Shown here piece by piece: positions 8,283 to 63,115 of a stretch of 64,000 nucleotides of DNA. The position numbers and the translations under genes are program-made. The number at the start of each line of letters is the position of its first letter. The first letter of the stretch is position 1. Origin of the DNA: Camellia lanceoleosa (taxonomy: Eukaryota; Streptophyta; Magnoliopsida; Ericales; Theaceae); assembly GCA_025200525.1 (NCBI GenBank), contig CM045760.1, forward strand, positions 47,325,932 through 47,389,931, read 5' to 3'. The notes under the pieces are model-generated. The model was not told the origin of the DNA. It searched no databases and was given only the letters and a program-made list of their open reading frames with translations.

Positions 8283-8530
8283 CACTCGAGCGGCACTTCT
8301 TGGGCTCGAACAGGCTTTGCGAACTCTCAATATTTTTGTAGACCTGCAAAATACTGGAAGAGTGTATTCTACGCTCGAGCAGTGTTTCCTACGCTCGAAC
8401 AGGTGGGCGCTCAAGCGGCTAATCTTGAGCTCGAGTGATGTCCTTCGTCTGCAAAACTTTTGAAAGTATGTATTCTGCGCTCGAGCATCACTTCTTGCGC
8501 TCAAGTAGAACAATGTGTCTAGCGCTCGAG
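8283..8530 (+). repeat. CTCGAG palindrome cluster in LTR A
   Basis: Five exact CTCGAG words (mostly as GCTCGAGC/G) and about five one-step variants (CTCGAA, CTCAAG) lie within 250 bp, just upstream of the TATATA/leader region. The variants are what CpG decay of CTCGAG would give. Confidence 0.9.
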
Positions 8531-8590
8531 TGGACTGCGTGTATATCAGTTCGTAATGAGGTCATTTTACATCACTTTTTCACTTCTTTC

Positions 8591-8598
8591 TTTATATA
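8591..8598 (+). promoter_or_regulatory. Possible TATA box of LTR A
   Basis: TTTATATA directly after the palindrome cluster and about 30 bases before the AAAATCCTAGATCTAGAGC leader. Position fits a core promoter. Confidence 0.4.
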
Positions 8599-8688
8599 CA
8601 TTTCAAAAATCCTAGATCTAGAGCCTCTCTCTCTAAAACCTACGTTCTCTCTACATTTTCACCTAAGAGGTGGTTTGGGATGTTCTAA

Positions 8689-9607
8689 GGCCTGGTTTGG
8701 CATCTTCAAAATAAGACAAAATGTCAAAAAGTTAAAAAGTTATCACTATTCACCAAAATAAATTATAAAAAAATTGTTTTTATACAAATTGTGAGACAAC
8801 TCACTCTGACGTGAGTTATCTTTGTTTGACTTTGGTGAGAACAAATTACACAGGCAGAGGCAAGCTTAAGGATGGTGATGTTCGGCCCGTGGGGGCCATC
8901 ACGGGTCCCGTTTTGATAATCTGAACCATTCAATGTGTAGAACTCGTCGAGTACTATATGCCTATAAAAAATCACGTTGGTCGGATATCGCAAACTATAT
9001 GATCAAGTCAGTTTTGTATAAAAAAAAATAGATGGTTTTATAGTTAACGATTGAAAAAATACTAATCCGATCAGATAGCTATCGATATTTGATCAACGTG
9101 ATTTTTTATAAATATATTGTACTCGACGAGTTCTACACATTCAACGGTTTCGATTAGCAAAACGAGACTCGTGGTGGGCCCTCACGGGCCGAACAACACT
9201 GTTCAATTCAATGCCCGAAAAGGAGGGAATCATCTCCTACCCTACACTCTGCACATGCTGCCCCTTATGGCTTCCGACCGTACGGCCTATTCTATCACAA
9301 TCTTCTCCTATACATAAATTTATACAATTTTTTAATACGCATTTTTTCGTAAAAAGTCAAAAAGTTTTTCCAAACAATCATATTTTTTTCCTCAATTTTT
9401 TAGTCCAAAAAGTGCACTTATTTAGGACATCCCAAACAACCCCTAAATAAGTGAACTTTTTGACTTTTTATGAAATATAGGTTGGGTATGGGTTGGGTTT
9501 GAAGTGATGTGGTAGAGAAGTGATGTGACTTAAATAAGATGATATGACTTAAATAAGATAGTGACTTTTTCACTTTTTAACTTTTTTAGTATATGCCAAA
9601 CAATACC
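8689..9607. mobile_element. Composite Tourist-like MITE in LTR A
   Basis: Absent from the same site in LTR B. Ends GGCCTGGTTTGGCAT and ATGCCAAACAATACC are inverted repeats flanked by TAA (8686-8688, 9608-9610), the target size of PIF/Harbinger elements. Inside are a second family end (CCCAAACAACCCC followed by TAA near 9440), the GTCAAAAAGTTAAAAAGTT words of the MITEs at 29733 and 30909, and a foldback element, so it is nested. Confidence 0.8.
8876..9203. mobile_element. Foldback element inside the composite MITE
   Basis: Inverted arms: GATGTTCGGCCCGTG...GGGCC on the left and GGGCC...CACGGGCCGAACAAC on the right, continuing inward through AACTCGTCGAGTAC, ATCACGTTGGTCGGATATC / GATATTTGATCAACGTGAT. 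It shares the core GGATATC..AACTATATGATC with the element at 12097-12481. Confidence 0.8.
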
Positions 9608-9741
9608 TAAATCCATTGGTTTCTCCACCCGTGTACCTTTGTTAAAAAGGTAGAGCATCTGAAGAGATCCGTTTTGATTTAAGTAGAAGTTGGCTTCGAC
9701 TTCTTTGAAATTCCTCCATTGTTGCTTTGGTCATCTAAGCT

Positions 9742-9752
9742 TAAGGTAGGAA
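9742..9752 (+). promoter_or_regulatory. Splice-donor-like site ending the LTR A leader
   Basis: AGCTTAAG|GTAGGAATTT, with GT at 9746. The B copy at 42981 keeps the GT. Confidence 0.45.
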
Positions 9753-9775
9753 TTTTCTACACTCTTTATTCTTTA

Positions 9776-10016
9776 TTTGGGAAGCCAAACCTTGGGCTTT
9801 TTTTGGCTAAAATAACTACACACACAAAAAAAAAAAAAAAAAAAAAGGCTTTTTAACTACAAAAAACAAAATATCACATCCAACCCATAATCATTACATT
9901 CTTTTTCTCCCAAAAAAGTAAAAAAAGCTAAAAAAGCCAAAAGCCCTTCCCAAACGAGATTTTTTAGCCCGGGCTAAAATAGCCAAAAAAGCCAAAAACC
10001 AATCCACTTCCCAAAC
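9776..10016. mobile_element. MITE in LTR A
   Basis: A block absent from LTR B, with ends TTTGGGAAG and CTTCCCAAA and an interior of AAAAAAGCCAAAA-type repeats around a poly(A) run. Related sequence occurs at 15800-16025. The exact target duplication is unclear. Confidence 0.65.
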
Positions 10017-11289
10017 GTACATGAGTTTTAACTTGGTTATTTCTTGATGTATGAAAAACATTGGGTTTTGAGGTGATTTTAACAAACCTAGGGTTTGTGG
10101 TTTAAATTCCAGAGAGGGATTTTCAAAGAGATGTCTTAGAAATGGTTATGGGAATAGATATGACCTTGGGTTGTGTTAAAATAGTTGATTTTTGATATTT
10201 GGGATGAGATTGGAAAAAACGGGAGTTTTGCCCTAAAATAACTTGAATAATTATTTTGTATAAATAATGAAAATTGTACAAGAAATGTGAAATTGGATAG
10301 ACATTTATATAAATGGTGTAGTTAGATACGTGTTATCTCTCACCTATGAAAATTTGAATAATTTATTTGTTGAAAAGATTGTATATCTGTTTTAAAATAT
10401 TTATTTTGGACTATCGGTGAATGATAACTATGATTATTGTAGAAATTGTATAAGGATTAGGTAAATTGAAATTTTCTTATTGGTTCTCATTGAATATAAC
10501 TGTGTTTTAATATATTGTATATGTATGATGTTTGGGAGGAGAAAGGGGATGTACTTCATATTTGAGAGGAGAAAGGGAATGGACTCAATTAAATTAAGTT
10601 GACTTGTGTGTCTTGGGTGCAAGTCCCAAAAACTTCGCATATCAATGGGTGTCGATCTCGTGAACGAAATTTTCGTAAAATAGCAAATTGAAGTGTTTGT
10701 GTATAATGGTTGTATGGTAAGAAAACCATTGAGTTGTAGTCTCAGTTGGGTTATCTAGATAACAATGGATATGACTTATAAATTGAGGAGATATGAAATG
10801 ACATGAAACGAATTAATATAAAATAAATTGGGATATAATACTTGGCATAATATAGTTTTGAAAAAAGAGTTGTAAATGATTTTATCTTTAAGCATTGGTC
10901 ATGTACATCATGTTTATAACTTTGTTAAAGTTCATATATTGTGTTAGATTGTTTGTACTGGGTTTGGACTCACCCTATTGGGAAAAATCATTTTCATGCC
11001 TCAGCCAAGACAGTAGCTTGGAGGGATTGGGAGCAAGAGCTTCTATTTTGTTGTGTCTATTTTTGTATAAGGGCTTGAAATTGTGTTGAGTTAGGCTCAC
11101 TTTTGTTGTTACCAAGCAACGATTTGGAAATATATAAGCCATTAGGGCAACTGATGATCTATGTAGCTTTCATTCTTTCTTATATCTGTCTTTTATATAT
11201 ATTAAACTTTGATGAATGAAGGTATGTTAATTCAATTATATTTCCGCTTATGAGATGGGTTCGTTGTGTTTATTTTAGGGGGCGTTACA

Positions 11290-18789: not shown

Positions 18790-18920
18790 CATGTATATCA
18801 TCTATAAAAAAAATTTAGGTTGATACCATAATTGTAGCCTTTCTATTTTATTGCGTTTGTCTCTAAAAAATGAATAATATGTGTGTTTTTAAAAATAGAC
18901 TATTTATTTTTTTGAAGGGT

Positions 18921-19060
18921 AATGCTAATGATACCAAATTTTCTATCAAACAAATAAACAAAGGTCTCACATGGGTGTAGGGTCCACAATTTTATAGACT
19001 CCACACCCACGTAAGACATTTGATCATCTGTTTGATAGAAAATTTAAAACCTATAGCATT
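18921..19060. mobile_element. Small MITE, 140 bp
   Basis: Ends AATGCTAATGATACC...AAATTTTCTATCAAACA and TGTTTGATAGAAAATTT...CTATAGCATT are inverted repeats of about 34 bp. The middle is a second inverted pair (GGGTGTAGGGTCCAC / GACTCCACACCCAC). Confidence 0.8.
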
Positions 19061-19306
19061 TTTTTTTTCGAATCCAAACGTGATATAATGCAGAGGTTAT
19101 AATTATCAGATTAATTTAAATTTTTTCGTAAATAATATATAAATCTTACAAAATGGATGATTTAAATAGTAAAAAAAAAAAAAACAAGAGCAGAGCAAAA
19201 CAACTTTTCTGGCGCGGATTTTGAACTTGAACTGTGGACAAGCTGGATCAATCTTTCTAAGCATTGTTAAGATGTGTCCTCATCTGTTTTTCATATCTCA
19301 ATCAAT

Positions 19307-19575: not shown

Positions 19576-19758
19576 TGTAGCACTTGGGCCCTTTTAAAAC
19601 TTTTGGGAAGTGTATTTGAACCATATATTATGTTTTGGGAATCTTCGGTGTTGTTGTACCTTGGTTTTGGATGAGTGAAAATTGATTTAAACTTGTTGGG
19701 TTTGGTTGTTCGCACTTATTTTTGTCAAAACGTTCCTTGGAAACTTAGAAATTTTGCC

Positions 19759-20130
19759 TTGGGGTCGACACTATCCTTCCTAAGGGTCGACCCTTGCATG
19801 TTGTGATGTTTCTGGGAGTGTCGCTGGAATATAGGGTCGACACTAGCCTTGGTGGTGTCGACACCTGCCTCTTGTTGCTGTCCACTAGGGTAGACACCAG
19901 TCTGGGGTGGTGTCGAACCTTTGTTGTATGTGCGTTGGTTGCTGGGAGATAGGGTAGACACCAGTCTGGGGTGGTGTCGACCCTTTGCTGTCTGTGTGTT
20001 GGTTGCTGGGAGATAGGGTAGACACCAGTCTGGGGTGGTGTCGACACCAAAGATCTTGATCAAGCTTTCCCAGATTTTTTTTTAACTCTTTGGTGTCGAC
20101 ACCACTGTTGCAGGGGTCGACACCTACGTG
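19759..20130 (+). repeat. GTCGAC palindrome cluster, 5' LTR of C
   Basis: Eight exact GTCGAC words, several extended to GGTGTCGACACC, plus decayed forms GGGTAGACACC. Embedded is a 62 bp tandem repeat (GGTTGCTGGGAGATAGGGTAG, ACCAGTCTGGGGTGGTGTCG) in about three copies. It ends about 100 bp before the TATA box. Confidence 0.92.
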
Positions 20131-20220
20131 TTTTTTTTCAAATTTTGGGCTGGTTTGGGCCCTACTTTTGAGGGGTTTTGGGCCCATTATTTTATTGACT
20201 TTAGGGTCACTTTTCTACCA

Positions 20221-20229
20221 CTATAAATA
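20221..20229 (+). promoter_or_regulatory. TATA box in the 5' LTR of C
   Basis: CTATAAATA followed by a CT-rich leader; copied at 26326-26334 in the 3' LTR. Confidence 0.65.
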
Positions 20230-23179
20230 AGCTCCAAAACATGTTTGATTTCACTTTTCTCTTCTTTTCTCTCTCTCAAACCGTGAGCTCTCCTCTCTCT
20301 CTCTAAACTCAAGCTTTTGGCACTAAGATTTCTAGATCTACTCACCTAGAGTGATTGTTCCACCATGGTCTTTTGAGAAAAAGTGTAGATCTCATCATAA
20401 GCTTCCTCTTGGTCCGATTGGTTCATGGCTTCGTCGCCATTAATGTTTGGGTCGTCATCTTTGGCTTCAAGAGGTAGGGGTCCTAGTTCTCCTTCAATGC
20501 TTACATTGATAGATAGATTTGTGGTATTTTGGAATATATATATGCAAAATCTATATTTTGGGCATATAGTGTAAATCATGAAATTTTGGGGTTAGGGTTT
20601 GAAATGTTGGGGTTCTATTATGGGGTTTAGATTATGGTTTATGGATTATGGACCTAGGGTGTATAATAAATGGAAAGATTGGAACAAAAAGTAATGGGTT
20701 AAGAAATTTGGATTTTTCTTGAAATTTCTAGATTTTTTCTTAAAACCCTAGGTTGATTTATGATGATAAACAATGAGTTTGCCCAAATTGAAAGTAGAAT
20801 CATGAAATTGAGGTATGGAATTGTATATATACAAGTTTAATTGAATTTTGGAAGTGTTTGAAAATCATGTTAAAAATTAGCGATTGAACCTTATTTATGG
20901 ATATTGTAAATTATGCTATGATATGAAATGAAACTTGGGAAAAATGATCAGTTAATGATAGGGATAACATGAGCCTTTGAATGAAATGATGAAATAAAAA
21001 TTTAGGAGTACACTTTGAATTATAAATAGTGGTGTTGAGTTAAGATATGTTGAATTGTGGTGATTATGTAGAATTGTATTGACTATGCTGATTTTGGTTT
21101 TTGTGATATAAAATGTAGAGTTTCCAAAATGGGCTTAATCTCAAATTATTTTATTAAATTCCTAGTGGGCTTGCTTAGTTATTTTGAAAATCAAGAGGAT
21201 GATTTAATGGGTTCTTTATGGGGATGGAAATGCTTGGTTTTTGGTGAAAACACTAGAACTTTAGAGATTTTTGAGGAACATGGAAATGTTCATAAAACTC
21301 ATTTCTTTCTTTGAATAGAAGGTGAATGTGTGTAAATTCCATAATGTGTTTTGCAAGATTGGTAATCTTTTAAATCTATTGAGTTGGAGAAATGGTTTTG
21401 AAAACTTCATGTGTAGTCCTTGGTGGGACCATGCTGCTTTGACTTGTGAAATGAGGAAGTTGATGGTATACGGTTGATTTGAGAAGGAATGTTATGAATC
21501 ATGGAGATTTTTGCATTTGCATATCATATCATTTATCATCGTGCATTGTGGTTTTAAATCCAAGAGATTTGCATTCATGACAGAAAATGATTTGGATGAG
21601 AAATATGGAAATGTGAATGGGGTAAATACGTGGTAAGTCCGGATAGGGGGTGTAGTTGATTTTGTTAAGTTGGCCTTGAGTGTCCAGGGTGAAAGACCCG
21701 AAAGCCGCGCGGATAGGTGTCGAGCCTTCCGGTTAGCACCGGTAAAAATGACAGTTTGGTAGTGCTTGTTGAGCCTACTTGCAGACACCAGCCTAGGGAT
21801 TACCAGTGTCGTATTTACCGCCCCTTTTAAAGTAATGATGGAAGTTTGAAATTGATGAGATCATATGATGACATTGAGAACATGGTGATTTTGAAACAAT
21901 GCATTGGAACGGATGTTTTTCCTCGTTGATTTATCTTGGCATAGCATTGCATTTACATTTACTTTTGTGTTGAGGAAAAAGCATAACTATGTACATACTT
22001 TGTGAGAATACTCTACAGAACTTGGGAATTTATTTTAAAAGAATGGTTGGTTTTCAAAAATGGTTTTTGGGAGTTCACATCCCGCTGTAGTAAGCCGGCA
22101 AAAAGTGGATTGTGTTGAGCTATGTGTTGAGAGGTAAGCTGAGTTGATGATTTTTTTTTTTTGTTACTTGTGATGAATTTGTGGAATTTCATATTGATGT
22201 ATAATTTGGTTTAAAGAGGAAATGTGCATGAGCATTATTTGTAAATAATGGGAAACAAAAAAAAGAATAGATATGAGGATTGTAGATTATGATGATAAAC
22301 TTAACGAAGTAGTTGTGTTAATAAAAGTAAATTGTGAGAGTTGTTCCTTAATTAAATAAAGGATTGGCTTGGAAGGGTTTATTAACATTGTGTTATCTTG
22401 AAATAAAACTTTGCGGGTGTAATTAACGGGGTGAATTGAGTATAGGAGAATTGTTGGCAAATCAAAAAGGAACTTGAACTTGAAGTTATGGGGTTTTAAG
22501 TTAAAAATAAAGAGTAAAAGAGTAGAATGAAAGAAAAGAGGAACATTAAAAATGGAAGTTAAATGAGAAACATTTTGAGAAATGGGTTATTAACCTTTAA
22601 ATGATGTTGTTTCTTAAATACAGTTGTTTCACAAGGAGCTATGTCTTTCTAAAAGTTAAGGGATGATTTTAATGGCTGAAGGTTTTTCTTACAAGTGTTT
22701 AAATTGTTTTTGAGAAAAAGATAACTTACTTATGATATTTTGAGATTATGAAATGTCACCCTACTATATGGTATCACCCAAAGATGCATGATCATTTTTA
22801 TCTGTGTGTTAGTTATTGATTTAGAACTGTGAGATTCCTACTGGGCATTAGTGCTCACCCCGTTGTTGTTGTATCTTTTTACAGGAAGAATGTTTGGATT
22901 ATTTGATTGAAGATGTACAGAGTTCTTGAGTCATTTGTATAACTTCATGGTAGTTGTAAAAGAAGTGGATTTGTATTGTATTCATTTATTTGTAGCTTCG
23001 CGGCAGAAGCATTGGCATGTATTATTGTTGTTGTATTCATTGAGAGAGAGAATATGTATTATCGTATTTCTGCTACTCAAGTGTAATAGATATTCGTATA
23101 TGTAGAAAAAAAAATATGGACCTAAATTTACAGGCTTTGGTAATGTTTTCGTGTAATTAAAATTCGGGGCGTGACAACA

Positions 23180-45441: not shown

Positions 45442-45442
<1 letters not shown>

Positions 45443-45473: not shown

Positions 45474-45476
<3 letters not shown>

Positions 45477-45631: not shown

Positions 45632-45740
45632 TGTGGTCGACCAGCCACCATTGGTGGCCGACCAGCCACCACTGGTGGCCGACAAGGATCACTCCTAGCC
45701 GACATATGGCTGTCAAACTCCATTTGTGGCTAACACATAC
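45632..45740. repeat. GGTCGACC/GGCCGAC cluster in F
   Basis: TGGTCGACCA, then GGTGGCCGACCAGCCACCA twice and CTAGCCGACATATGGCTG. A second cluster lies at 43998-44060 (GGCCGATCGAC, GGCTATCGGCTACC, GGCCGGTTGGCC). Confidence 0.85.
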
Positions 45741-47144
45741 CTGACAAGCTTCACTAGTGGCTGGAAAACAAAAAACTGGTTTTTGGCCCTGACTTCAAGT
45801 AGGCATATCTCCTTTATTTGGACTTTTTTGTAGGCCATTCTTGAGTCTAAATTGAAGCCTTGGAAGTCTTCTTTCCAATGGTGGAAGCCTCACATCAACA
45901 TTCAAATTGTGCAAAAAGATATGCCTCTTTTAGTGAAGACTGCTCAGTTTCGGTCCTAACCAGATTTATGCCCAACTTCAACTAGCCATAGCTCCCTCAT
46001 CTGGACTCGGCTTTAGGAGATTATTGAATGTAAAATGAAGCCCCGAAAGTCCAATTTCCAATGTTGGTGGCCTCATAGCTAAAATCCAAGTGTACAAAAG
46101 GGTAGGCCTGATTTAGCGAGGGCTGCTTGACTCTCTCTTAACGGTTCATGCCCATCTTCTTCCCCAACTTGGTTTCTTCCCTCTCCTCTAATTTTCTTCA
46201 ACTCCAAACCTCTAAACAAGATATTTTAAAGATTTTTTCAAATATTTCACCTCTCTTTCATTCATTTCCACTTTGTCCTTGCTCGGTTTACCGAAAAGCG
46301 TAACATTTAGCGAAATGTGAGCTTCAGAACATCGTAGGAACTTTTTTCAAAACTATATTGAAAGAGAGGGTTTTAAGGTCTAAAAATTTTGGTCAAAAGG
46401 CTTTGGTCCAAAAAGGGGTGTGAGGTTTGGGATTTGACGCTCTCCTTGTCAAAGAAATCAAACCTTTGCACAAGATAGCCTGCATCATCAAGTAAGCAAT
46501 CAGTGGCGCCCAAGTCTTATGGACGGTCAAAAATGGGGTGTCTACAGTGGTACTATCACGCCCCAAACTCGCCCCTAAAGGTTTGGGCACGACCAATTCG
46601 GAAACAGACATAAAATTCAATATGTATAACATATGGGGCCTGAACGGAAGCAATTAACAACATGAAATAACATCCATTGAGCTAACACCTATATGCCAGG
46701 ATCGCAAATCTACCATCAAACAGTTCCAACATATGATAAATAGACACACAAGAAATAGATATTCACATATACATATATAAATATATATATAGATCCAGCC
46801 CCGCACGTGGGGGTGTAGCAAAAATATTGGTAGGGAAAGTTATACATGCTTAATCACATTAGACAAAAGACTGCTGACCAAAGCTAAGGGTTGTGAAAGG
46901 AACTCCACAAAATGCATAGACTTCACCAACTGCTTGGATACGGTGCAGTTGTCAAAAGGAAGCAACCAAAGCTGAGCTAAGACTGACCTTCGGGTTGGTT
47001 ACCTACAAAGACAGACATAATGCAGAGTGAGCAAGGCTCAGTGAATAATAGTACCTAAAGAATTCAATGAATAAACTTGAATTGTAATATTTAAAACGTG
47101 TATAAGTGCAGAGGTCATATGATTAATCTTATCCTGTAAACATT

Positions 47145-47480
47145 TTCAGAATGGCCTTGGGCCCAATTTTTATACAGAGAGGCTTTAAGCCCAGTATCAT
47201 GCAGAACGCCCTCAGGCCCAACATATCTTACAGATCAGCCTCGGGCCCAGATATCAATAGATTGGCCTCGGGCCCATATATCAACAGATGTCTGAACATT
47301 AACGGGTAAGTGATACATCGATATGTACGCCACTTCCCTCGGCCACAGGCCATAACATATATTTAATCCAAGTCATAACTCGGTCGGTGAGTCATTGACA
47401 TGTCCTCACCTCCCTCTTCTTTAGAGTTGTCCACACTCGGTGGCTTCTAACCGAACGGCCTCGGGCCCATCATTAGCAAA
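47145..47480. repeat. GGGCCC tandem-like array in E2
   Basis: GGCCTTGGGCCC, GCCCTCAGGCCC, GCCTCGGGCCC (three times) at about 29 bp spacing, separated by ATATCAACAGAT-like DNA. Confidence 0.8.
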
Positions 47481-47844
47481 ACAAAATGATTCCAGATACA
47501 CAAAGATATCATTGTTCCATAATGCACATATGCTCCATTTGTTCATCATGAGTCAATATAGTTAACTTGCAGATAATAGAACGTTAATATTAACTATTAA
47601 TAGTAAGCAAAATGCACTACTACAGTATTATTACTCACAGTGCTGTGGTGGAGCGATAGTCTCTTCTAGTATGTGACCTACACACACATGCAGTTTAGAA
47701 ATGAGTCTATTTTCCTTCTTTAATCATTATTTGATTCGTTCGACATACATTTAATTATACGCATTTTAAAAGCTTTAGATACACATTTTAGTAATCCCAG
47801 AGGATCAAACAAGAGAAAAGAAACACACAGTGTTTTTCCATATG

Positions 47845-48015
47845 GGCCGCACGTGTGGAAAGGTGGGCCGCATGTGCGGTAATCCTCCCCCGCACGTGTC
47901 TTTATTTCAGTAGCGAAGCTTTGAAATCCCTTGTTTTCCGCACTTGTGGCTGTGAGGCCCACACGTGCGGTGGTGCTTCCTGCACGTGCGGCTATGACCC
48001 CCGCACGTGCGGTTG
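47845..48015. repeat. CACGTG palindrome cluster in E2
   Basis: Five exact CACGTG (as CCGCACGTGCGG and close forms) plus CATGTG and CACTTG variants in 170 bp. Confidence 0.88.
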
Positions 48016-48439
48016 CAGCCCCTGCTTTGGGCAGTCTGAATTTAGGCAAAAATCCAATAGAACCAACACATTACTATGTGTAAAACAAGGAGAATTAACT
48101 CAGTAGGTGGACATAACATCTTCATAACATGAATCACAAAGTGTAATACCACCATAAACATGAGTACAAGCTTAAGTAGATCATAGCCCTTCCTAAATTC
48201 ACCAACACAATCCAATTCCTTTATGTTTATGGTTATGGTTGATACATGAACAATACATATGTGAGTTCAACATGGAAAATCAAAGGAGAACATGTAGTTC
48301 CTCCCAAAACAACCAAAAGATAAGAACAACCTCCTATTTAAGCAATTACATACTTTTGGGCTCAATTGTGAACCCTAACTTGCATATTAACAAGAAATTC
48401 CTACTCAAATTCAAGAAAATGATTGAACAAAGTGGGTTA

Positions 48440-48452
48440 AACTTACCTTGAG
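48440..48452 (-). promoter_or_regulatory. Splice-donor-like site in E2
   Basis: Minus AGCTCAAG|GTAAGTTT, a near-ideal donor at the end of a GA-rich leader. Confidence 0.55.
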
Positions 48453-49026
48453 CTTCAATCTCTAGAAACCCTCTCAATTCTTCCTAATCTTCTTCTTTCT
48501 TGATCTTCTTCCTTCTTAGTTCTCTCTTCTCTTAACTCTTCATTCTCTCTCTTTCAGGAGATATTTTGTGGTAGTTTCCCCCAAGTCAAATGTTTAAGGA
48601 TAAATATATATATAAAAGTTGAATAAGACAAAAGTTAATTAGTTTAGTCATTCTGAATCAGATTTTTATAGAAAATCATATTGTGATCTAAAACTCATAC
48701 AAATCTCAATTATAAAGTCAATTTCGGATTATCACGCTTCTACGGCTTCCAATTTCTATTCCAAAGATCGCAATTGTAGCAGATATTTCTCTTACTTGAC
48801 AGATATAAATCTATAACCATAAGATTCACTCAATTAAACTTAATTTCACATGGAATTTCACAGTAAACACATAAATGTGCAGAGTAAGGGACTGAAAGCA
48901 TACCAGAAAACATATACGAGGGTCGGGTTATTACAGGTACACCGATTAGCTATTATATCAACTTAGTCTTGAGACTCACATGTATAGTCGGTACCGAAGA
49001 CCATAAAGTTCCATGTCTTGCGCGCA

Positions 49027-49240
49027 AGTAGCCATGGTATTGTTACCCCCAGGCGAGGGCCATGTAAATATAGGCCTTAGTATTGTTACCCCCAGGCAAG
49101 GGCCACGTGAATATAGGCCACGATATTGTTACCTCTCGGCAAAGGCACGTGAATATAAGCCACGGTATTGTTACCCCCGAGCGAGGGCCATGTGTATATT
49201 GGCCACGATATTGTTACCCTCGGGCGAGGGCCACATGAAC
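49027..49240 (+). repeat. 44 bp tandem array in E1
   Basis: Five units of TATTGTTACCCCC(A/G)GGCGAGGGCCA(C/T)GTGAATATAGGCCACG type, spacing about 43 bp. It occupies the place held by the GGGCCC array in E2. Confidence 0.9.
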
Positions 49241-49639
49241 TAAGGATGCCACAAATACATTTTAGAAAAATGGAGATTCATTTATAATTCATAAAATAGC
49301 ATTTCAGAGAACAGATCATATCATATCAGTCAGAAAAAACTTATAAGTAAACATAGCTTTGCAAGGTTATTACTCACAAATAACAGATAGCTTCAAGGCA
49401 AACAGACAAAATGGGCAAATCAGACGTCTTGTGGCGCGTGACCTACACAGTTACAAAATGAACACGTACTGAATTACACACCTAGAAGCATTAACTTAAT
49501 TTTTTCTTATCTTGGTGTGTTTCTATTTCTTATCCTCATTATGGTGTCTTAAACTTGGCCTAGGTATGCCTAGGATGGGATGAGGATGCAAAAACGTACT
49601 TGAAAACACTTAAGAAAACTTGCTGAAAATAAGGTACTC

Positions 49640-49930
49640 ACTCGAGCGTAACTTGCTATGCTCGAGCGGACATGCAAAATGTGAGTGGTTGCTCGAGCGG
49701 TCTGTAAATTTTTGCAAAAGTGCTGGTTGTTTGATTTTTTCTGCTCGATGCTCGCTGATGCATCAGAGACATGCTCTTGCTCAAGCACAATTTTTTTTGC
49801 TTGAGCGGTCTGCAAAATATAAGAAATTCTGGGAGCATGCATTCCACGCTCGAGTGGACTTCTGGTCGCTCAAGCGGAAGTGCACGCACTCAGAGTGGTT
49901 GCTCGAGCGTGGATTATTTCGCTCGAGCGG
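49640..49930. repeat. CTCGAG palindrome cluster in E1
   Basis: Six exact CTCGAG (mostly GCTCGAGCGG) plus CTCAAG and CTTGAG variants. The same word as LTR A and B, though the rest of the LTR differs and the orientation is opposite. Confidence 0.9.
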
Positions 49931-50961
49931 AAGTGCAAAATCTAGAATTTCCAGATTGCAATCCCAAGCTCAAAACTCGAATCTAACTCATCAAAACACA
50001 ACTTTTGGCCCCCAAAACTTGAGAAAACAAGTTTAAACTTTGAAAACATTAAGAATGAAAGATCTTTTCACAAAATCAAGGCCCAAGAGTAAGTCAATTG
50101 GGTAAAATTAAACTTGATACTTATAAAACAGCACATGGACTTACATGCAAGCATTTTCTTGACTTCAAAGCTTCCAAAACATGATCAATTAAGGAAAATT
50201 GATGGAAAACATGATAAAGTTTCATAATTAAGTTGAGAACATGACATACATGGAGAATTTACTTGAAATCAACTTCAAAATTACCATAAAATGCACATGC
50301 AAGCTCTACTATTCTTCTTTCCTACTTCTTTAGTTTATTTCATGAACTAATCTTTCATTTTCATCTGAATTCACAACTTAAATGAGTTAATTACATAATT
50401 CAAGGGCTGAATTCCTTACCTACAAGTCTCGATTCTTTGAGGTCTAGAGTGATTCTTCCCAATGACTCAGATTCTAGCTAAGTTCAAGTCAATTCCTCTC
50501 AATTCCTCTCAATTCTCTAGCAATCACCCTAGTTGAGCTCAAGTCTTCTCTTTTATCTCCCTCTCTCACGTTTTGAGCTTTGAGGAGTATGTAATGAGGG
50601 TGCAAAATGTATTAAGGAAGTCAAAGTGGCCTTATATAGGCTTCATTAGGAAGACCTCATTAATAGCTAATCAATTGACATTATTTATCTAATTTTAATT
50701 ATCCCAAATCGAATTTCAAATGGACCTACCATAATGTTCTAAAAATTCCAAATAACACATATACCAAGCCAATTTCGTGATCGAATGCCAATAAGGCCTT
50801 CAATTCGCAAACCGAAACGAAAACATGAACATATCTTTCTATGTGAAACAGATATAAGCACAAATAAGGCAATATATGATGCAAAATTTCACTTTAATTA
50901 CTTATTGGGCATAATTAAGCATGGATTAACATTAATCATGGGTCGAGGTTGTTACATGTAT

Positions 50962-51945
50962 CATCCTTCACCTACAAAAATTTGAATAATTTATCTGTTT
51001 TAAAGATTGCATATCTGTTTAGAAATATCTGTTTTGGGCTATCGGTGGAGGATAGCCATGATTGTTGTAGAAATTGCATGAGGATTAGGTGTATTGAAAC
51101 TAATCTCTTATTGATTGTCATTGAATATGATTGTGTTTAATACATTGTATATGTATGATGTTTGGAAGAAGAAAGGGGATGGACTCCATTGAATTAAGTT
51201 GGCTTGTGCGTCCAGGGTGAAAGTCTAGAAAACATTATGTATACATGGGTGCCAATTCCTGCGAACGAAATTTTCGTAAAATGGTAAATTGAAGTGTTGA
51301 TGTGAAATGGTTGTGTGGTAAGAAAACCACTGAGTTGTAATCTTAGTTGGGTTGTCTGGAGAACAATGGATATGACTCATGAATTGAGAGGATATGAAAT
51401 GACATGAAACAAATTGATATAAAATGGATTGGGGTATAATATTCGACATAATATGGTTTTGGAAGAAGAGTTGTAAATGATTATACTTTGAGCTTTGACC
51501 ATGTGCATCATGCTTATAACCCTGTTAAAGTTCATATATTTTGTTAGATTGTTTTTGCTGGGTTTTGGCTCACCCTATTGGGAAAAACCATTTTCACATG
51601 CCGGTGATATGCCTCTGCCAAGGCAGTAGCTTGGAGGAATCGGGAGCAAGAGCTTCTATTTTGTTATTTATTTTGTATAGCCAAGGGCTTTAAATTGTGT
51701 TGAGCCAGGCTCACTTTTGTTGTAACCAAGAACTATCTTGGAAAGGTGTAAGCCTGTAGGGCATTTATTTCGTTGATCATTTAATTTGGTGCCACATGTT
51801 ATAGATTCAGGGTAAAGCTTATGAATGTGCAATGCATGTGCCCCTTTTGTAAATTGACTCTGATTAATGGAAACTTAATACTCTGCTTATGTCTTTTGTA
51901 TTAGTCGATACTATTGGCTTAGTATATTATTTTCAGGGTATTACA
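50962..51945 (+). mobile_element. 5' LTR of element B, piece 3
   Basis: Aligns with LTR A 10336-11289: GGATAGCCATGATTGTTGTAG, GCGAACGAAATTTTCG, AGTAGCTTGGAGGAATCGGGAG. It ends TATTACA, directly before the primer site. The three pieces total about 2.0 kb. Confidence 0.85.
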
Positions 51946-51947
51946 AC

Positions 51948-51960
51948 TTGGTATCAGAGT
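51948..51960 (+). promoter_or_regulatory. Primer binding site of element B
   Basis: TTGGTATCAGAGT, two bases after the LTR end; iMet-tRNA type. Confidence 0.85.
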
Positions 51961-52347
51961 GTATCGGGTTTGAATACTTTGGGTACATGAGAAGTGGTTA
52001 GTACCATAATAGGTTTGTCTCGTTTGCTAGATACTTAAGTACGAACAATATGTGCTTATATGATAACATGCTTGTGTGATTATATGGGTATGGGATTGAA
52101 TTTCTAGGATGTTGATTGAGTCTACGGGTTTCTAGAAGTCCTATTAGAAGAGCACTTGATCACTGCTGTTTCTAATTGGAACTCTAGCAACGCCACGGGA
52201 CAGTCATTATCCGAGAATGAAATTCGTATGTGTTTAGATAACTATTTGCTTATGTGGAGTGAATTACTGTTATCCACCGTATTAGGACATGAGTGGAGCT
52301 TCTGCACATTTGTAAATGTGCTAATCTCTTTTGTTACCTTCATTTGG

Positions 52348-55300
52348 ATGTCAGGACATGGACGTGGTGGTAGGTGTGGTAGGCCTAGACGGCAGGAGAT
52401 ACCGATACCAGATGATATTTTGACACAGGAGGAGGGTGTTGGTCAGGCCAATGTGGCTGAACCGGTTGGTCAACAGGCCATGGATGCCTTGGCTCGTGAA
52501 ATGGCTAGAGTATTAGGGGAATCCATGGATAGTCTCAGGGCTGAGAATCAAGTCTAGACCCAACTAGCTGAGGCTGGACCATCTTTTCTGAAACAGGAGT
52601 TTTTCCAGTCGAATCCGGATGAGTTTTTGGGTGATCCTAAGGAGCCACTGAAAGTGGTTGAATGGCTAGAATAGATAGTGAAGACATTTTAGATGCTCGG
52701 CATTGAAGATGGGGATTTGAGGGTGACCTTGGCATCCTTCTAGCTGAAGGAAGACGCAGGTCAATGGTGGAAGTATGTGCGTGGGCGCATTGGTGCGACT
52801 TGGGAGGCTTTCGTTGATGCCTTCCAGGACAAGTTCTTGTCTCCCACTATTAGCGAGAAGTTGAGGGATCAGTTCTCTCAGCTCAAGTAATTGAGCACAT
52901 CGGTGGCTGAGTTTGAGGCCATATTCACTAACCTCTCTAGGTTTGCACCAGAGTTAGTGGCAACTGAGGAGCACCGTTGTCTGGAGTTTGAGAAGAGATT
53001 AAGGACCGGGCTCATGTTTAAAGTGGTCAGGTTGATGATTAGGGAATATGGACGCCTTGTAGAGGCATCGGCTCATTTGGAGACTATGATGTAGATAGAG
53101 GAGGAGAGGATGAGGGGCTCTAGGAGGAGCTAGGACATTCAGGGGGACAGTAAGAGGCAAAGGGGCTCTAACCCACAACCGTCCCAGGGAGCTCAGTCGA
53201 GGTCTACTTTTCCAATGCCGAGTTTGGGTTCTGGGAGGGGTGGTCAAGAAGACATTACTTGTTTCAAATGTGGTCAGTTGGGCCACAAGTCTCCGACTTA
53301 CCCGTAGAGAGGAGGAGTGCAACGGTTTGCACTGTCTTCGGCTCATTCTTAAAGCCAAAGTCAGGGGAGAGGGCAGCCACTCACTTGTTATCAATGTGGA
53401 CAGGTGGGGCACATGAAGAGATTTTGCCCACAGTTTGGTGGCACACCTGATGCGTCTGGTTTGAGACAGACACAGAGTCACCAGCTAGCACAGTTAGCGC
53501 AGGCCTCGAGGGCCAATCAGGGAGCCTCTTCAGCTCAGTTAGTGTAGCAGGCCTATGCTCTGAGGGGAGAGCAGGTAGATTAGAGGCCAACAGGGTTTAT
53601 GTATGCTGTTACCGCACTAGATGTAGTACCAGCACCTTCTATAGTGAGAGGTCCCTTCTTGTTTTGCAATTCAGTTGCTAATGTATTGATTGATACGGGT
53701 GCATCTTATTCATTTATTTCGTTTGCATTTGCATCGATTTTAGGGTTAGAGTTGGCTCAGTTAGCATCTCCTATCTGTGTAGAGTCAACTATTGGTAGTG
53801 AGATTATTTTGAAGCAGGGGTGTCAGGGTTGTGACATAGAGGTTGCCGGTCACCGACTCCCTTTTGCATTTGTATTAATTGATATGTCTAGCTTTGACGT
53901 TATTTTGGGTATGGATTGGTTGTCTTCGTATCGGGATGTTATAGATTGCTACCATTAAAGGGTTACTGTATGTACTCTAAGCGGTGATTGCTTTTACTTT
54001 TTGGGGGACCGGGTGGATAGAGTCTTATCACTGGTATATGATCTGCGTGGTCGGAGTGAGCTTAGTTGCCTACTTGCTAACTTCCTGAGTACTGAGTGTG
54101 ATGAAGTCCAAGTTGAGTTGCTAAGAGTAGTTTGTGAATACTCGGATATTTTTCTGAAGGATCTTACCAGTTTACCACCTCACTGAGAGATCGAGTTCTC
54201 TATTGACTTAGTGCCTGGTACGACACTGATTTCTATGGAACCATATAGATTTGCACCTGCTGAGTTGAGTGAGTTGAAGATTTAACTCCAAGAATTGCTA
54301 GATAAGGGTTTCATCCACCTTAGTACTTCATCTTGGAGAGCACTAACTCTTTTTGCTAAGAAGAAAGATGGTGCGTTACGACTTTGCATAGATTACCGAA
54401 AGTTAGATTGGGTAACTGTTAAGAACGAGTACCCAATGCCTCGTATAAGCGATTTGTTTGATCAGTTGAAGGGGTCTTGTTGTTTTTCTAAGATAGACCT
54501 AAGATCGGGTTACCACCAGTTGAGATTGAGGGAGGAGGATATCCCCATGACGGCATTCCGTACACGGTATGGCCAGTACGAGTTTCTAGGGATGCCCTTT
54601 GGGCTCACCAATGCACCAGCTATATTTATGGACTTGATAAACCAGATCTTTCGTGAGTTCCTAGATCATTTTCTGGTCATTTTTGTGGATGACATCTTGA
54701 TTTACTCACCCTTTAAGGAGGAGCATGAGGAACACTTGCGGGTAGTACTTGAGTTACTTAGAGCCCACAAACTGTATGCTAAGTTTGGGAAGTATGAATT
54801 TTGGTTGAGAGAAGTTAAGTTCTTAGGCCATGTGGTTTCCGGGGAAGGGGTGACAATAGATTCATCCAACATAGAAGCAATACAAGATTAGTAACAACTA
54901 AAGAATGCTTTTGAAATCCATAGTTTCTTGGGGTTGGCCGGGTATTACCGTTTGTTTGTGAAGGATTTCTCTAGATTAGTCTCACCATTAACTAGACTGA
55001 TGAGGAAGGGAATCAAGTTTGTATGGAGTGAGTCTTGTGAGAAGTCATTTCAAGAGTTTAAGGTTAGACTTACCACTGCTTCGATTTTGATTATTTCGGA
55101 GAGGGGTTTAGGTTATTCGGTATATTGTGATGTCTCACGAGAAGGTTTGGGTTGTGTTTTGATGCAAGAGGGAAAGGTAGTAGCCTATGGCTCGTGGTAG
55201 TTGAAAACACATGAGAAGAACTACCCTACTCATGACCTAGAGTTAGCGGCGGTGATCTTTGCCTTAAAGATTTGGAGGCATTATCTGTATAGTGAGAAGT

Positions 55301-56215
55301 TTGAAGTGTTTTATGATCATAAGAGTCTGAAGTATCTGTTTACCCAGAAAGACTTGAATTTGAGGCAGAGGAGGTGGATGGAGTTCATAGAAGATTATGA
55401 TTTTGAGTTACATTATCACCCGGGGAGGGCAAACGTTGTGGCCGATGCCTTGAGTAGGAAATCAATTAGCAGTGTAGCTTGTATTGCCATCCGAGAATGG
55501 TAGATGTTGGGTGCTATTGGGGAGTTTTACTTGCATCTTGGTGAGTCTGTTGAGTCTGCCACTTTGTTTTTGGTAGTTGCGCAACCCACACTTGTGAACT
55601 GAGTGATAGAAGCACAGAAGGGTGACCTTGAGGCAGAATCCCTCCAGGAGAAGATCTCCAGTGGGAAGGTAGAAAGAGGCTTGAATGTGTATCCCGACCT
55701 GAGTGTGACGTACCGTGACCGTTTGTTCGGATCAGAGTCTTGTTGAGAGGAAGTACTCCGAGGGTTTCACTATTTACGCCTTGCGGTGCATCCAGGAGGC
55801 ACAAAGATGTATCACGATCTTAGTCGCCAGTTTTGGTGGAGAAATGTGAAGAAGGATGTGGCTATATTTGTATCGAGGTGCCTTACTTGTCAACACGCAA
55901 AAGCTGAGCATCAGAGGCTAGCTGGTTTATTGTAACCCTTGCCTATAGCCGAGTGGAAGTGGGAGCATGTCACGATGGATTTTGTTGTGGGTCTTCCGAG
56001 GACTCAACGGGGTAGTGATGCCATTTGGGTGGTGGTTGACCGGTTGACTAAGTCGGCGCACTTTATACTTATGCGTGTAAGTGACTCGGTAGATTATCTT
56101 GCCGACTTGTACATTAGGGACATAGTGAGGTTGTAAGGGGTCCTAGTAACGATTGTATCGAATAGAGATCCGCGTTTTACGGCTCGGATGTGGTAGAGCC
56201 TACAGGATGCCTTGG
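52348..56215 (+). pseudogene. Gag-pol of Ty3/gypsy element B, stop-riddled and truncated
   Basis: Domains in order: gag from ATG 52348 (SGHGRGG start, capsid core around 52600-53100); two zinc knuckles, CFKCGQLGHKSPTY (last Cys changed to Tyr) and CYQCGQVGHMKRFC; aspartic protease VLIDTGASYSFIS (53682); reverse transcriptase 54295-54891 with [21 protein letters not shown] and FVDD; RNase H with AYGSW and TLE-equivalent HDLELAAV up to VADALSRKS (55490); integrase HHCC zinc finger (55770-55895) and first catalytic Asp in MDFVVGLP. It is cut near 56215, soon after NRDPRF, by LTR G1. About 18 in-frame stops, nearly all from CAG, CAA, CGA or TGG. Layout and primer site suggest a Tekay/Del-type chromovirus; the chromodomain is not in view. 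It can make no enzyme. Confidence 0.95.
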
Positions 56216-57719: not shown

Positions 57720-57830
57720 ACCTCCTGGTGGGCTGCCGACCAGAAAAGGGGGCTGTAGACCAGAAAAACTGGATGTAGACCAGGAAAAGTGGTCGGTCGA
57801 CCACCCCTATTGGTCGGCCAACCAGTTAAT
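57720..57830. repeat. GTCGACC cluster in G1
   Basis: GCCGACCAG, TGTAGACCAG twice, GTGGTCGGTCGACCAC and TTGGTCGGCCAACCAG: palindromes and half-sites in 110 bp. Confidence 0.82.
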
Positions 57831-59125: not shown

Positions 59126-62100
59126 TGTAGACGTCCCCGAACGTCCCGGGAGGGAATCCAGTTTTGTTCTTTTTGGGGTTCACTATAGTTCAGGACTCAA
59201 TGTCACGGTCCTGTATCTAATCTCGCAGAGTGCAATGCAAGACCGATGAATCATCAAAGAGTCCAAATCCGGCAAATCGTTTTGGAAAACTGATTTTTAA
59301 GAAGTGCCAAACATGGACTACTTTGCCAGATACAGAGTCGCCACCTAAATATTTTGTTTTGGGAAAATTTAAGAAACCCTGACTCATTTGCCTAAGGCCA
59401 CGTGTCCGTCATCACCAAAGTTGCCTCGGCTCGAGAACTTGGGTACGATTGGGGAAGGTCAGCTATGAGCACCCCCGCTCGCCCGTTCAAAGATCGGCCT
59501 CTACTAAACATGATATCTTGTTTTGAAAACATATGCATTCTTATTCCGGTTTATTAGCCTAGAATTACTATGTGATGCGCACAACATACAAATATAGACC
59601 GGATTGCCTGAGTTGGAACGAAACATTTCATGTTTGTTTTTGAAAGCGGTTTGCTACTCGTAAGTAGGCTAAAATGTGAATTTGCCACTTTCAAGTGGGC
59701 TTAGAAAACATGGTTTTGCCACTTTCAAGTGGGCTTAAAACTTTCATTCAATGCATTGTTCCAATTTCGGTAATCCAACCTTCACCCACAGGCATTCAAG
59801 TAGTTATATCACATAGACACGTAACCTCATGGTAAGCATGCTATCATGTTAACATTCATACACATGCGAGATGCTAAAGCATAAATGCTCACCTAGTACT
59901 CCAAGCCAAAGCAGAAACTAGTTAGTAATCATATGCATGATCCTAGTTCATGTTAAGATGGCTAATGCAACACATGCAAGATGCAACTACAATAGGCTCA
60001 GCTATTCTAAGATGGCATATGATGATGCTACAACTAACACGTATTCAACTTAGAATTGAAATACAATGCAGTTAGTATGATGTACCAAGCCCGGTGCATG
60101 CAATACAGATGAATGAATGCACGCATGCATAGCATAAGGTATGCTAATTTAAATATGCCCTAATACTAACAATTGAAAGCAAGTAAATAAAAGGGAGAAA
60201 GAAGTGGGGGTTGGAAGACATACATACACTCACACACACTTATTACACAATTGCCCTCGCTCGGAGGGTCCGAAAGAATAATACAGACCGAATGAATAAT
60301 TAACTACTCTAGCTAATTAAATATTACAAACCCTTAACTAATTAACAAATTAATTAAACTATTTAGAGCAGTAAAACAGCCTCAGGAAGAGGGATGCACG
60401 CATGCTCGGTCGGCTTTGCTCGGAAATCCATCGCCATGCCACAGTTGCCTCTGTTTACACTGCTCTGTTCTTTTGAAAACTGTGCCAACCTCTGTGACAC
60501 CTTTGAAACATCTTGGAGACATGCTGAGAGGCCATCAGCCATAAGATGGGACCACCAGCCAAGTGAAACAGGTCATCGACCAAAAATTATGCTCTCGGCC
60601 AAAAATGGATAGTCGGTCGGCACTGAAGATGGCCGACCGGCCATCTCTTCCTGCAGAATCTTGTTTGACAGCAGTAGAGGGAAAACAGAGCATGGCAATG
60701 CATTTTCAAAGCAATGTATGCACAACCACCCTCCCTATCATGTCATGAACTCAAGGGAGTATGGTTCTTGACCCTCGGGCCACCAATCACGCATTTCAAT
60801 GCATGATGGCTAAAGGAGCCGAGTTGTGCATTTTGATGTCAAATGTAATGCACACCAAACAAACACATAAGGCCCAACCTCAAATATAGTGATTTCAAGA
60901 GGCAAGGCATGCATGCAAAATGCAATGCAACCTAGGCATGCAAGCTAAGTATGCACCATGAACATGAGGGCAAGCAATGTAAACATGCAACATGGACAAC
61001 ACACAAACATGTAATAACATGTTAAATGGCTAAAAGAGAGAATACATGCCAAATGCATTACAACCTAAGCATGCAACAACATGTCATATAGCTCAAGCAA
61101 TGCAACAAAATGCAATATGGCTAAGCATGTGTCAACAATGCAAGTAATGAGCATGCAAAACATCATACAACCAAAGCATGCAAACATGAAGCACTGTAAC
61201 AAAATTTGAGCAACATGCAAAAGGTGGACTTAAACTAATATGGACAAGCCTCAGCCATGTCTAAAATCAGTGGCCAAATGTGCTAAAATGATGGCTTGAC
61301 ATGCACCAAAATGAAGCTCATGTAATGGTCCAAAAATGAGGTATTCATGCATAACTCTCAAAAGCATTTAAAGAATGGAAAACATGGGAATATGGCATAC
61401 ATATAAGATCTGAAATATGATGCACAATGATGCCAAAACATAGAAACACCTCAACATAGGCATGCAATAGGCTCCAAAACTCGAAGCTAGGCAAGGGTAT
61501 TGAACTACAACCATGCATAACAAGAAACATTCGACCATGAGGCCCCAAAACAGAGCTAGGGCAGTCCAAAATACACACAAAATCAGTTTGTGGCATGGTC
61601 AAAAAGTGCTAGAATCAAGGGTCACCAAAGCATGCAAAGTAAGCTAGTGAACCATGATTTGCACTACAACTATATGAAGCATATGAGAGATCACCAAACC
61701 AGCCAAAAACAGAAGTATGCCATGCCAAAATATGCCCAAATAACTACTGAAACTCAGTCAATACATGTTAGAATGAAGTGCTCATTTGGAAGGCCATGCA
61801 AAGGGTTGTTCTACACATACATGATATACATACAAAATGGCAAAATCACCTCTAGAAAGAGGTTATGACAGCCCTAAAACTCACTAAAAAGGGCTTGGAA
61901 TGAGCCAAGGAAGCATACAAGTAAAGACCCCTTTGGAAGGCCTTGTGGAGGATTACTCTACACATGCATAATAGACACTTTATATGGAAAAATGGGCTCT
62001 GGATAGACCCTATGCAGACCTTAAAACTCACCAAAAAAGGCCTAAAATATGGCTTTGAAACATGCAAATAGGAGCCCCTTTGGAAGGCCAAAAATGCTAG

Positions 62101-62664
62101 AAAACAAGACAACAAGGGAGAGGGTCACCCCTCTCCTTCTTAGGACCTCAAAACACCATCCTCACCACTGAAATCCCTTTGGATTTCAGTGGTGAGAAGG
62201 CCAATACAAGGTGGTCCCGAAGCTCACAAAAAAGACACAAAAATGAGGCCAAACAAGGCCTAAGAGGGGGTAAACAACCCCAAACACAAAAGTGATCTTA
62301 AAAAACTTAAAAAGGAGCTCAAAATAAGACTTTTTTTAGTTTATTACAAAGCTCAAAAATTCTTACAAGTAAGGCTAAAATATGAAGCAAAATAAAGACC
62401 AAAAGAGGGTAACGTGTGTTACCCTTGTAGCCAAAAGGGGACAACAGCTTCTTGGTCCAGAAAACCAGTCCCTTAGCCTCTAAAAATGGCTTCCAAGATC
62501 CTTAGGTTGATGATGGAGGTGTTAGGCTAAGAGTTGGTGTGCAAAGGGGCCAAGAACTATGGACTTTGGAGCTCAAAGTAGTGAGATATGTATGGTTTTT
62601 GCCTTAGCAAAATTTTTGGAACCCTTGCAATGGAAGAGGAGCTCTTATTTTATAGAGGAACAAA

Positions 62665-62965
62665 GGTGCAAGCTTCTCTTAGAAGCTTGAGCAAAGGGGC
62701 CAAGCTTCTCTTAGAAGCTTGGAGCAAAAGGGTCAAGCTTCTTGAGGAAGCTAGAGCAAAGGGGTCAAGCTTCCTCAAGAAGCTAAGAAAGGGTCAAGCT
62801 TCTCTTAGAAGCTTGGAGCAAAGGGGCCAAGCTTCTTGGAAAAGCTAGGCAAAGGGTTCAAGCTTCTTGGAGAAGCTAAAAAGGTTCAAGCTTCTTCAAG
62901 AAGCTAAAACCGAGGGTTCAAAAGGTTCAAGCTTCCTCAAGAAGCTAAAACCAAGGTTTAAAAGG
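62665..62965. repeat. AAGCTT hairpin array in LTR G2
   Basis: Nine or ten units of about 30 bp, each an inverted pair such as AAGCTTCTCTTAGAAGCTT or CAAGCTTCTTGAGGAAGCT, separated by AGCAAAGGGG(C/T). The plus frame through it (62588-62848) is a by-product. An RNA of either strand would fold into serial hairpins. Confidence 0.92.
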
Positions 62966-62989
62966 TTCAAACCTCCCCAAGACAGGGTC

Positions 62990-63115
62990 TCGGCCAGAAA
63001 AAGTGGCCAGTTGACCAAAATTAGTGGTCGGCCGACCAAACATAATGCCGACCGGCCAACACCTTTGGTCGGTAGCAAGAAAACAGGGCCGGTGGCCTCA
63101 AACCATGGCCGGTGA
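62990..63115. repeat. GGTCGGCCGACC cluster in G2
   Basis: TCGGCCAGAAAAAGTGGCCAG, GTGGTCGGCCGACCA, GCCGACCGGCCAAC, TGGTCGGTAG and GGCCGGTGG within 126 bp, about 200 bp from the LTR start. Confidence 0.85.

Follow-up and report, generated by a model that had tools for sequence, protein, structure and literature searches.

The window analysed here is a stretch of 64 kb from Camellia lanceoleosa (CM045760.1), in which retrotransposons with long terminal repeats (LTRs), now decayed and nested in one another, carry clusters of short palindromic words. The clusters are real and lie above chance. Alignments indicate that two related LTRs, called E1 and E2 below, bear different palindromes (CTCGAG and CACGTG, respectively) at one relative place, and neighbouring copies in several clusters lie 20-22 bp apart. 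The best reading of these arrays is that they are homotypic, that their dyad-symmetric boxes stand where the long LTRs bear their promoters, that at least the family formed by LTRs A and B and element E is Ty3/gypsy, and that they would work, by analogy, like the palindromic repeated motifs (RM) of the Ty1/copia Sireviruses.

Palindrome clusters

Exact word positions were counted over the whole window, and the maximum number of copies per 300 bp was compared with 100 dinucleotide-preserving shuffles made in 1-kb blocks. The shuffles never held more than three copies of a CpG-containing palindrome per 300 bp, but GTCGAC reached seven, CTCGAG six and CACGTG five in the window. An earlier note on this DNA had placed clusters of exact palindromes in LTRs A, B, C, E1 and E2, and the exact-copy positions agree with it. 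The clusters are as follows.

8285 to 8530, plus strand: CTCGAG cluster of A; five exact copies (8285-8525) and five with one mismatch; three pairs 20 bp apart
34773 to 35005, plus strand: CTCGAG cluster of B, which is of A's family and lies within the LTR of element E; three exact copies (34773-34950) and four with one mismatch
19764 to 20121, plus strand: GTCGAC cluster of the C 5' LTR; eight exact copies (19764-20116) and five with one mismatch; six neighbour gaps of 21-22 bp
25869 to 26224, plus strand: GTCGAC cluster of the C 3' LTR; nine exact copies (25869-26219)
49641 to 49927, minus strand: CTCGAG cluster of E1; six exact copies (49641-49922) and four with one mismatch; four pairs exactly 20 bp apart
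47850 to 48009, minus strand: CACGTG cluster of E2; five exact copies (47850-48004) and two with one mismatch; five of six gaps 21-22 bp
45635 to 45704, minus strand: F cluster; one GGTCGACC and three GCCGAC units, in steps of 21, 21 and 20 bp
43997 to 44070, minus strand: second, looser F cluster of GGTCGGCC with up to three mismatches
57735 to 57819, minus strand: G1 cluster; GTCGACC-like units in steps of 20, 20, 20 and 17 bp, with one exact GGTCGACC
62985 to 63120, minus strand: G2 cluster; one exact GGTCGGCCGACC and GGCC-type dyads
62670 to 62934, minus strand: AAGCTT cluster of G2; 12 exact copies, several of them forming CAAGCTTCT-N3-AGAAGCTTG inverted repeats; directly upstream of a minus-strand TATA box at about 62648-62655 (picked by eye)

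The earlier note had also claimed several exact copies in F, G1 and G2. Each of these LTRs has just one exact GGTCGACC or GGTCGGCCGACC (at 45635, 57795 and 63026), and what recurs in them is a less strict unit, similar to GGCCGACC or to GTAGACC. Dyad symmetry of the repeated motif is present in A, B, C, E1, E2 and the AAGCTT cluster and is weak in F, G1 and G2. Three features had escaped the note: the 12 copies of AAGCTT, against a shuffle maximum of four per 300 bp and at a place in G2 absent from its list; six copies of GCATGC, where the shuffles reached three; and the spacing of neighbouring copies. The GCATGC copies lie within 275 bp of the G2 LTR (60907-61181) and are possibly another palindrome cluster. 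Palindromes made of A and T only barely exceed chance: TATATA and ATATAT reach seven copies in a TA microsatellite, and the shuffle maximum is six.

It had been proposed that the imperfect copies arose mostly by CpG decay and that the spacers are A/T-rich. The former is borne out in the CTCGAG clusters, in which CpG transitions account for three of the five single-mismatch copies in A, three of four in B and three of four in E1; in E2 the share is one of two, and in C, whose LTRs are 97.8% identical, decay is not borne out (none of five). The latter fails for C and E2, whose spacers are G+C-rich. CACGTG is presumably the G-box of plants, and we take GCCGAC to resemble the core of the dehydration-responsive element (DRE).

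Elements that carry the clusters

The LTRs and element parts that hold the clusters are listed below, with the primer-binding site abbreviated to PBS and reverse transcriptase to RT.

8092 to 11289, plus strand: LTR of A, solo or a remnant; start approximate; insertion between about 8664 and about 9610
34570 to 35243, plus strand: first piece of the LTR of element E, holding cluster B; further pieces at 43003-43313 and 50957-51946
51949 to 56133, plus strand: internal part of E; the PBS and, after it, fragments of protease, RT, RNase H and integrase zinc domain, ordered as in Ty3/gypsy
19576 to 23176, plus strand: 5' LTR of C; 3' LTR at 25681-29282; target duplication ACTCT; PBS at 23180
20222 to 20229, plus strand: TATA-type site of C, TATAAATA, followed by a CT-rich leader and about 100 bp past the last word (by eye)
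43314 to 50956, minus strand: LTR of E1, inserted in E's LTR with duplication TGTAT and split by F and E2
46554 to 48935, minus strand: LTR of E2, nested in E1 with duplication GGTAC

In a self-comparison of the window, A is colinear with the three separated pieces of E's LTR. Because the first of these pieces includes B, the treatment of A and B as separate families was rejected; judged from this alignment, B is the promoter part of E's own LTR, which later insertions have interrupted, and A represents E's family as another, diverged copy. The earlier idea that each family has its own word was thus correct in that words differ among LTR types, but A and B count as one family and E1 has the same CTCGAG. 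Other members of a family keep the cluster in two cases, A/B and the two LTRs of C. Within E's LTR, clusters of the non-palindromic words GGCTAC and CGACTA are seen at 35252-35860 and 42650-42950; these resemble what we take to be subterminal repeats of an inserted CACTA-type DNA transposon.

Element E is assigned to Ty3/gypsy because of its domain order, protease-RT-RNase H-integrase, in which Integrase_H2C2 follows RNase H. Its PBS, with one mismatch, follows the last LTR piece. The element is broken off inside the integrase at about 56.28 kb, its chromodomain lies outside what the window contains, and the piece corresponding to the integrase core had no integrase match in Pfam. Judged by the appearance of pol and the PBS, E is presumably of the Tekay/Del lineage. 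Ty3/gypsy placement rests on E; C, E1, E2, F and the G LTRs have no coding evidence for a lineage. Pfam was run on 94 open reading frames (ORFs) or pieces (10 + 82 + 2), and the 82, drawn from 121 ORFs of at least 75 residues, gave three weak family matches, none of them useful. A search with the RT in viral_contigs, which is not a plant set, gave no match, and the LTR-end/PBS pattern had 0 matches in viral_contigs and genome_contigs, neither of which is a plant collection.

The two LTRs of C, 3.6 kb each and 97.8% identical, surround 2.5 kb whose scanned ORFs yielded no coding domain. The sequence GCTCAC followed by TAGG or CAGG lies 324-476 bp before the LTR end and is anchored in C by the PBS. 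In E1 and E2 it occurs on the minus strands only, and E1 and E2 are therefore taken as minus-strand LTRs; a plus-strand orientation was rejected on the same ground. Both (E1 read from 50956 to 43314, E2 from 48935 to 46554) have a GTAAG-type site resembling a splice donor past the leader and a TAGG resembling an acceptor near the 3' end, as seen by eye, and their word clusters may sit in an intron inside the LTR. Direct repeats with GGCCACGTGAATATA-like units were also observed in E1 at 49031-49223, with two exact CACGTG (49104 and 49146). F, G1 and G2 are similar to one another in the self-comparison and are read as minus-strand LTRs, to which no lineage is assigned.

Spacing of neighbouring copies

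The pooled spacing test took in A, E1, the C 5' LTR and E2, in which 18 of the 36 neighbour gaps measure 20-22 bp; the best bin of the null had a mean of 6.3 and a maximum of 12 in 5000 trials. Variants in which F was added, B replaced A or AAGCTT was added gave an identical peak. The pooled test excluded G1 and the second F cluster, whose units are recognised only when two or three mismatches are allowed. The typical gap is 20 bp for CTCGAG pairs, 21-22 bp in C and E2, 20-21 bp in F and 20 bp in G1. When the share of gaps of 19-22 bp in each cluster was compared with random placement within that cluster, it was above expectation in E2 (5/6, P 0.00005), the two LTRs of C (5' LTR 6/12, P 0.0005; 3' LTR 6/12, P 0.00035), E1 (4/9, P 0.0045), F (3/3, P 0.012), G1 (3/4, P 0.012) and A (3/9, P 0.047).

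The middles of the spacers agree at 89% in F (one comparison), 67% in A, 62% in C, 58% in B, 40% in E1 and 35% in E2; copies 8424 and 19880 were omitted from this comparison, and copy 34793, with two mismatches, was included. Because the middles agree at only 40% and 35%, E1 and E2 have kept the length of the spacers but not their letters.

Position in the LTR and exchange of words

All TATA boxes were identified by eye. A TATA-like site lies about ten bases past the last word in A and B, and the words of F and G2 are upstream of a minus-strand TATA. The words stand upstream of the TATA in A, B, C, F and G2, but not in E1 and E2, where one has to go about 600-1000 bp downstream from the probable TATA to reach the cluster. 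The position relative to the TATA box, whose constancy the earlier note had suggested testing, is therefore not fixed, and an enhancer-like role fits better than a part in the core promoter. The clusters of C, E1 and E2 are all in the upper half of the LTR.

A local alignment of E1 with E2 scored 351, compared with a maximum of 190 in 30 shuffles. When the LTRs were aligned by parts, none of 200 shuffles reached the score of the promoter part or of the 3' part, 9 reached that of the part before the cluster and 34 that of the part after it. The clusters themselves, at 44% of the LTR length in E1 and 42% in E2, show no similarity to each other, all 200 of 200 shuffles matching their score. Given the weak flanks, a larger middle part may have been exchanged.

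Clusters were also aligned across families with the words masked, in 13 pairs and both orientations, against 200 shuffles each. The A-B alignment was strong (0/200), and with B reversed no shuffle reached the score either (0/200), which was lower; the spacers of that family therefore contain some inverted similarity. F and G1 match only with G1 reversed (0/200). A and E1 match marginally on the plus strand (2/200), a hint only of what would be a shared module inverted relative to E1's LTR, and E1-F was borderline both ways (10/200 and 6/200). In each of the remaining tests at least 30 of 200 shuffles scored equal or better. A common origin of the clusters across families was rejected on these alignments, with the exceptions of A-B, F-G1 reversed, the marginal A-E1 and the borderline E1-F.

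Predicted RNA folding

Folding was assessed in 110-nt windows at 5-nt steps with a cutoff of -40 kcal/mol, the criterion used for miRNA-like (microRNA-like) regions of maize in the available text of PMC10760457. Regions below the cutoff merge into 25, which overlap ten of the 11 clusters; the circular-shift null had a mean of 1.6 and a maximum of 5 in 5000. The z scores of the clusters against shuffles range from -2.0 (GGTCGG part of G2) to -12.0 (AAGCTT part), and 40 background windows gave a mean z of -0.70, a standard deviation of 2.15, a 5th percentile of -2.78 and one window at -10.9. G1 (z -2.86) and the GGTCGG part of G2 (z -2.04) have values close to or inside the 5th percentile of the background, and the cluster of A misses the cutoff, its best window being at -38.3. 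Complementarity of the flanks inside pairs 20-22 bp apart is clearly above that of other combinations in E1 and F only. The two strongest folds of the window, at 18911-19070 and 62081-62270 (-66.8 and -60.7 kcal/mol per 110 nt, respectively; minus strand), lie outside the word clusters.

Comparison with known systems

Bousios et al. (2010; PMC2829016) described RM in 13 Sireviruses. According to the available text of that paper, these are dyad-symmetric palindromes that are mostly different in each element, number at least eight copies in total including copies outside the LTR, bear CpG and are clustered mainly in the upper half of the long LTR, usually upstream of the TATA; a CGG-CCG core is present in 12 of the 13, and the motifs were not found in the other Ty1/copia elements examined there. 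The arrays in the window are alike in that they are clustered, CpG-bearing dyad boxes whose word varies by element, and the GGTCGACC and GGTCGGCCGACC words of F, G1 and G2 come close to CGGTCGACCG, the box of Vitis. The view that these clusters correspond to no named feature has to be given up, since the palindromic RM of Sireviruses is one.

Several differences from the Sirevirus motifs, as portrayed in PMC2829016, are to be considered. Sirevirus RM belong to Ty1/copia, whereas cluster B lies in a Ty3/gypsy element. The CGG-CCG core is not in CTCGAG, GTCGAC or AAGCTT; only GGTCGGCCGACC in G2 has it, and in the extended word of E2 the CCG and CGG stand the other way round. Copies per LTR with at most one mismatch number 10 in A, 7 in B, 10 in E1, 13 in the C 5' LTR and 7 in E2, figures to be set beside Sirevirus totals that include copies outside the LTR. 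The clusters of E1 and E2 are downstream of the probable TATA, unlike the Sirevirus boxes, and the spacing of 20-22 bp has no mention for Sirevirus RM in the accessible text. It seems that the array as a feature was already named in Ty1/copia and that the apparent additions are its presence in a Ty3/gypsy LTR, the words of E1 and E2 at one place, and the spacing. No report of palindrome arrays in Ty3/gypsy was recognised in the accessible part of the open-licence literature in PubMed Central, which is no proof of absence.

Other plant elements offer partial parallels. Retrosat2, a rice retrotransposon with LTRs of more than 3.2 kb and several regulatory signals, shares very long LTRs with the elements studied here, but its paper, in the text available, reports other repeated motifs and does so without the term 'palindrom' (PMC3485330). 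For Retand, as for Retrosat2, the accessible description gives other repeats and not palindrome arrays. A preference for palindromes as target sites, described in the available text of PMC6911290, was rejected as a counterpart; it concerns insertion sites and not the content of the LTR.

Proposed mechanism and alternatives

It is proposed, with about an even chance of being correct, that pairs of putative dimer-binding sites make each array an LTR enhancer, with silencing derived from hairpins as a side cost. Each dyad of 6-12 bp would be bound by a dimeric host transcription factor, and two boxes about two helical turns apart would bring a dimer each to the same face of the helix, where the two could bind cooperatively. 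The array would then act as an enhancer of the LTR promoter whichever side of the TATA it lay on; clusters do occur on both sides of the probable TATA, as enhancers may. Slippage and unequal exchange may enlarge and rewrite the arrays, so that a whole family could switch its word. Transcripts through the array would fold, because each palindrome can pair with every other copy, and would likely become a source of small interfering RNA (siRNA) and a hotspot of methylation, which is regarded as a price paid for the design, not as its function. The earlier note had suggested a constant design with a changing word, under the constraint of a dimeric protein or an RNA fold. The words of E1 and E2 at the same place, the spacing and the folding agree with this suggestion; the merging of families and the three weak clusters do not.

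Several results weigh against the paired-site enhancer. The bin of 20-22 bp was spotted in the positions before it was tested. Spacing is not significant in B (2/6, P 0.068), the AAGCTT cluster (3/11, P 0.092) or the second F cluster (1/4, P 0.43), and the gaps of C are not all independent, since a 64-bp duplication gives three of its six pairs. Phasing over longer range at 10.5 bp reaches significance in C (P below 1 in 2000 randomisations) and in F (P 0.019), but not in A, B, E1 or E2, and was rejected as a general rule. The predicted folding would also suit an RNA target equally well.

It is conceivable, though rather unlikely, that the RNA fold comes first, the palindromes being kept for transcript hairpins (structured LTR RNA or miRNA-like precursors of siRNA) and DNA binding being secondary or absent. 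The overlap of the clusters with strongly folding regions and the range of their z scores speak for this possibility, as does the report, cited in the available text of PMC10760457 and PMC5311732, that the palindrome regions of maize Sirevirus LTRs are hotspots of small RNA. Those hotspots and the present arrays have in common a strong predicted fold (-40 kcal/mol per 110 nt), but the lineage differs and the folding here is a prediction from sequence. Folding follows automatically from repeated palindromes and by itself cannot tell an RNA target from a DNA target; flank complementarity raised in just two LTRs, the shortfall of A and the near-background values of G1 and G2 are further points against an RNA origin. 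A neutral origin, in which LTR tandem duplications of about 21 bp or longer contained a palindrome by chance and have no function, is thought unlikely. Such minisatellites would explain the 64-bp duplication in C, the near-identical 21-bp units in F and the spacers that are still alike in A, B and C, but they sit poorly with E1 and E2, where nearly unrelated spacers have kept their length. They also do not account for the finding, made by eye, that the strongest non-microsatellite 6-mer clusters in LTRs centre on the palindromes AAGCTT, CTCGAG, GTCGAC and CACGTG, whereas strong clusters at 35575-35858, 42651-42928 and 63659-63939 are not centred on palindromes.

The word could also be an address for a factor encoded by the element itself, a cognate protein that evolves fast and would open the LTR or release it from silencing. 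The precedent is VANC of the VANDAL transposons, whose targets are short, family-specific motifs that are repeated in non-coding DNA and have diverged together (PMC5735166, PMC10398659), and the present motif arrays in non-coding element DNA are VANC-like in form. VANDAL elements, however, are DNA transposons with a known cognate protein, and their motifs are of 8-9 bp and, in the available text of the same two papers, not described as palindromes. The 94 ORFs or pieces compared with Pfam included no candidate protein, the elements in the window being broken or non-coding, and such an address is considered very unlikely. Even less credence is given to a signal for RNA dimerization or packaging, which is highly improbable. 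In the kissing loops of retroviruses a palindrome mediates pairing between two genomic RNAs, and a word of genomic RNA that pairs with the same word of a second RNA would need a palindrome with otherwise free letters, as is seen across the families here; many copies at fixed spacing would be unneeded, and neighbours could pair together rather than stand free.

A broader form of the paired-site enhancer is decidedly doubtful. It would hold that paired palindromes two helical turns apart serve as a family-specific address in the long LTRs of plant Ty3/gypsy elements, with a word that is exchangeable and a symmetry and spacing that are not, that a fast-evolving cognate dimer, encoded by the host or the element, reads the address so as to open the promoter or resist silencing, and that the design arose separately in Sireviruses. 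The Sirevirus-like feature in this window appears to extend a design that is known but little understood. If the rule were genome-wide, a feature described as particular to Sireviruses would become a general, perhaps convergent, design of plant retrotransposons with long LTRs. Its measurable grammar would be symmetry and a spacing of 20-22 bp with the word left free; the rule would open a route, by sequence only, to the proteins that switch on each family and to the sites at which hosts first aim small RNAs, and word swaps at constant spacing could distinguish the enhancer from the hairpin.

Other features of the window

Direct repeats of 548 bp, 94% identical, lie at 5214-5761 and 7274-7821, and each has two CACGTG 39 bp apart. 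They probably represent a pair of short LTRs, and the weak gag match between them (6423-6782) is below the Pfam cutoff. Four tandem copies with a period of 162 bp are found at 37314-38099. On the minus strand, an ORF at 1868-2242 has a match to Dynamin_M (E 6.2e-8) and is probably part of a host gene or a gene fragment.

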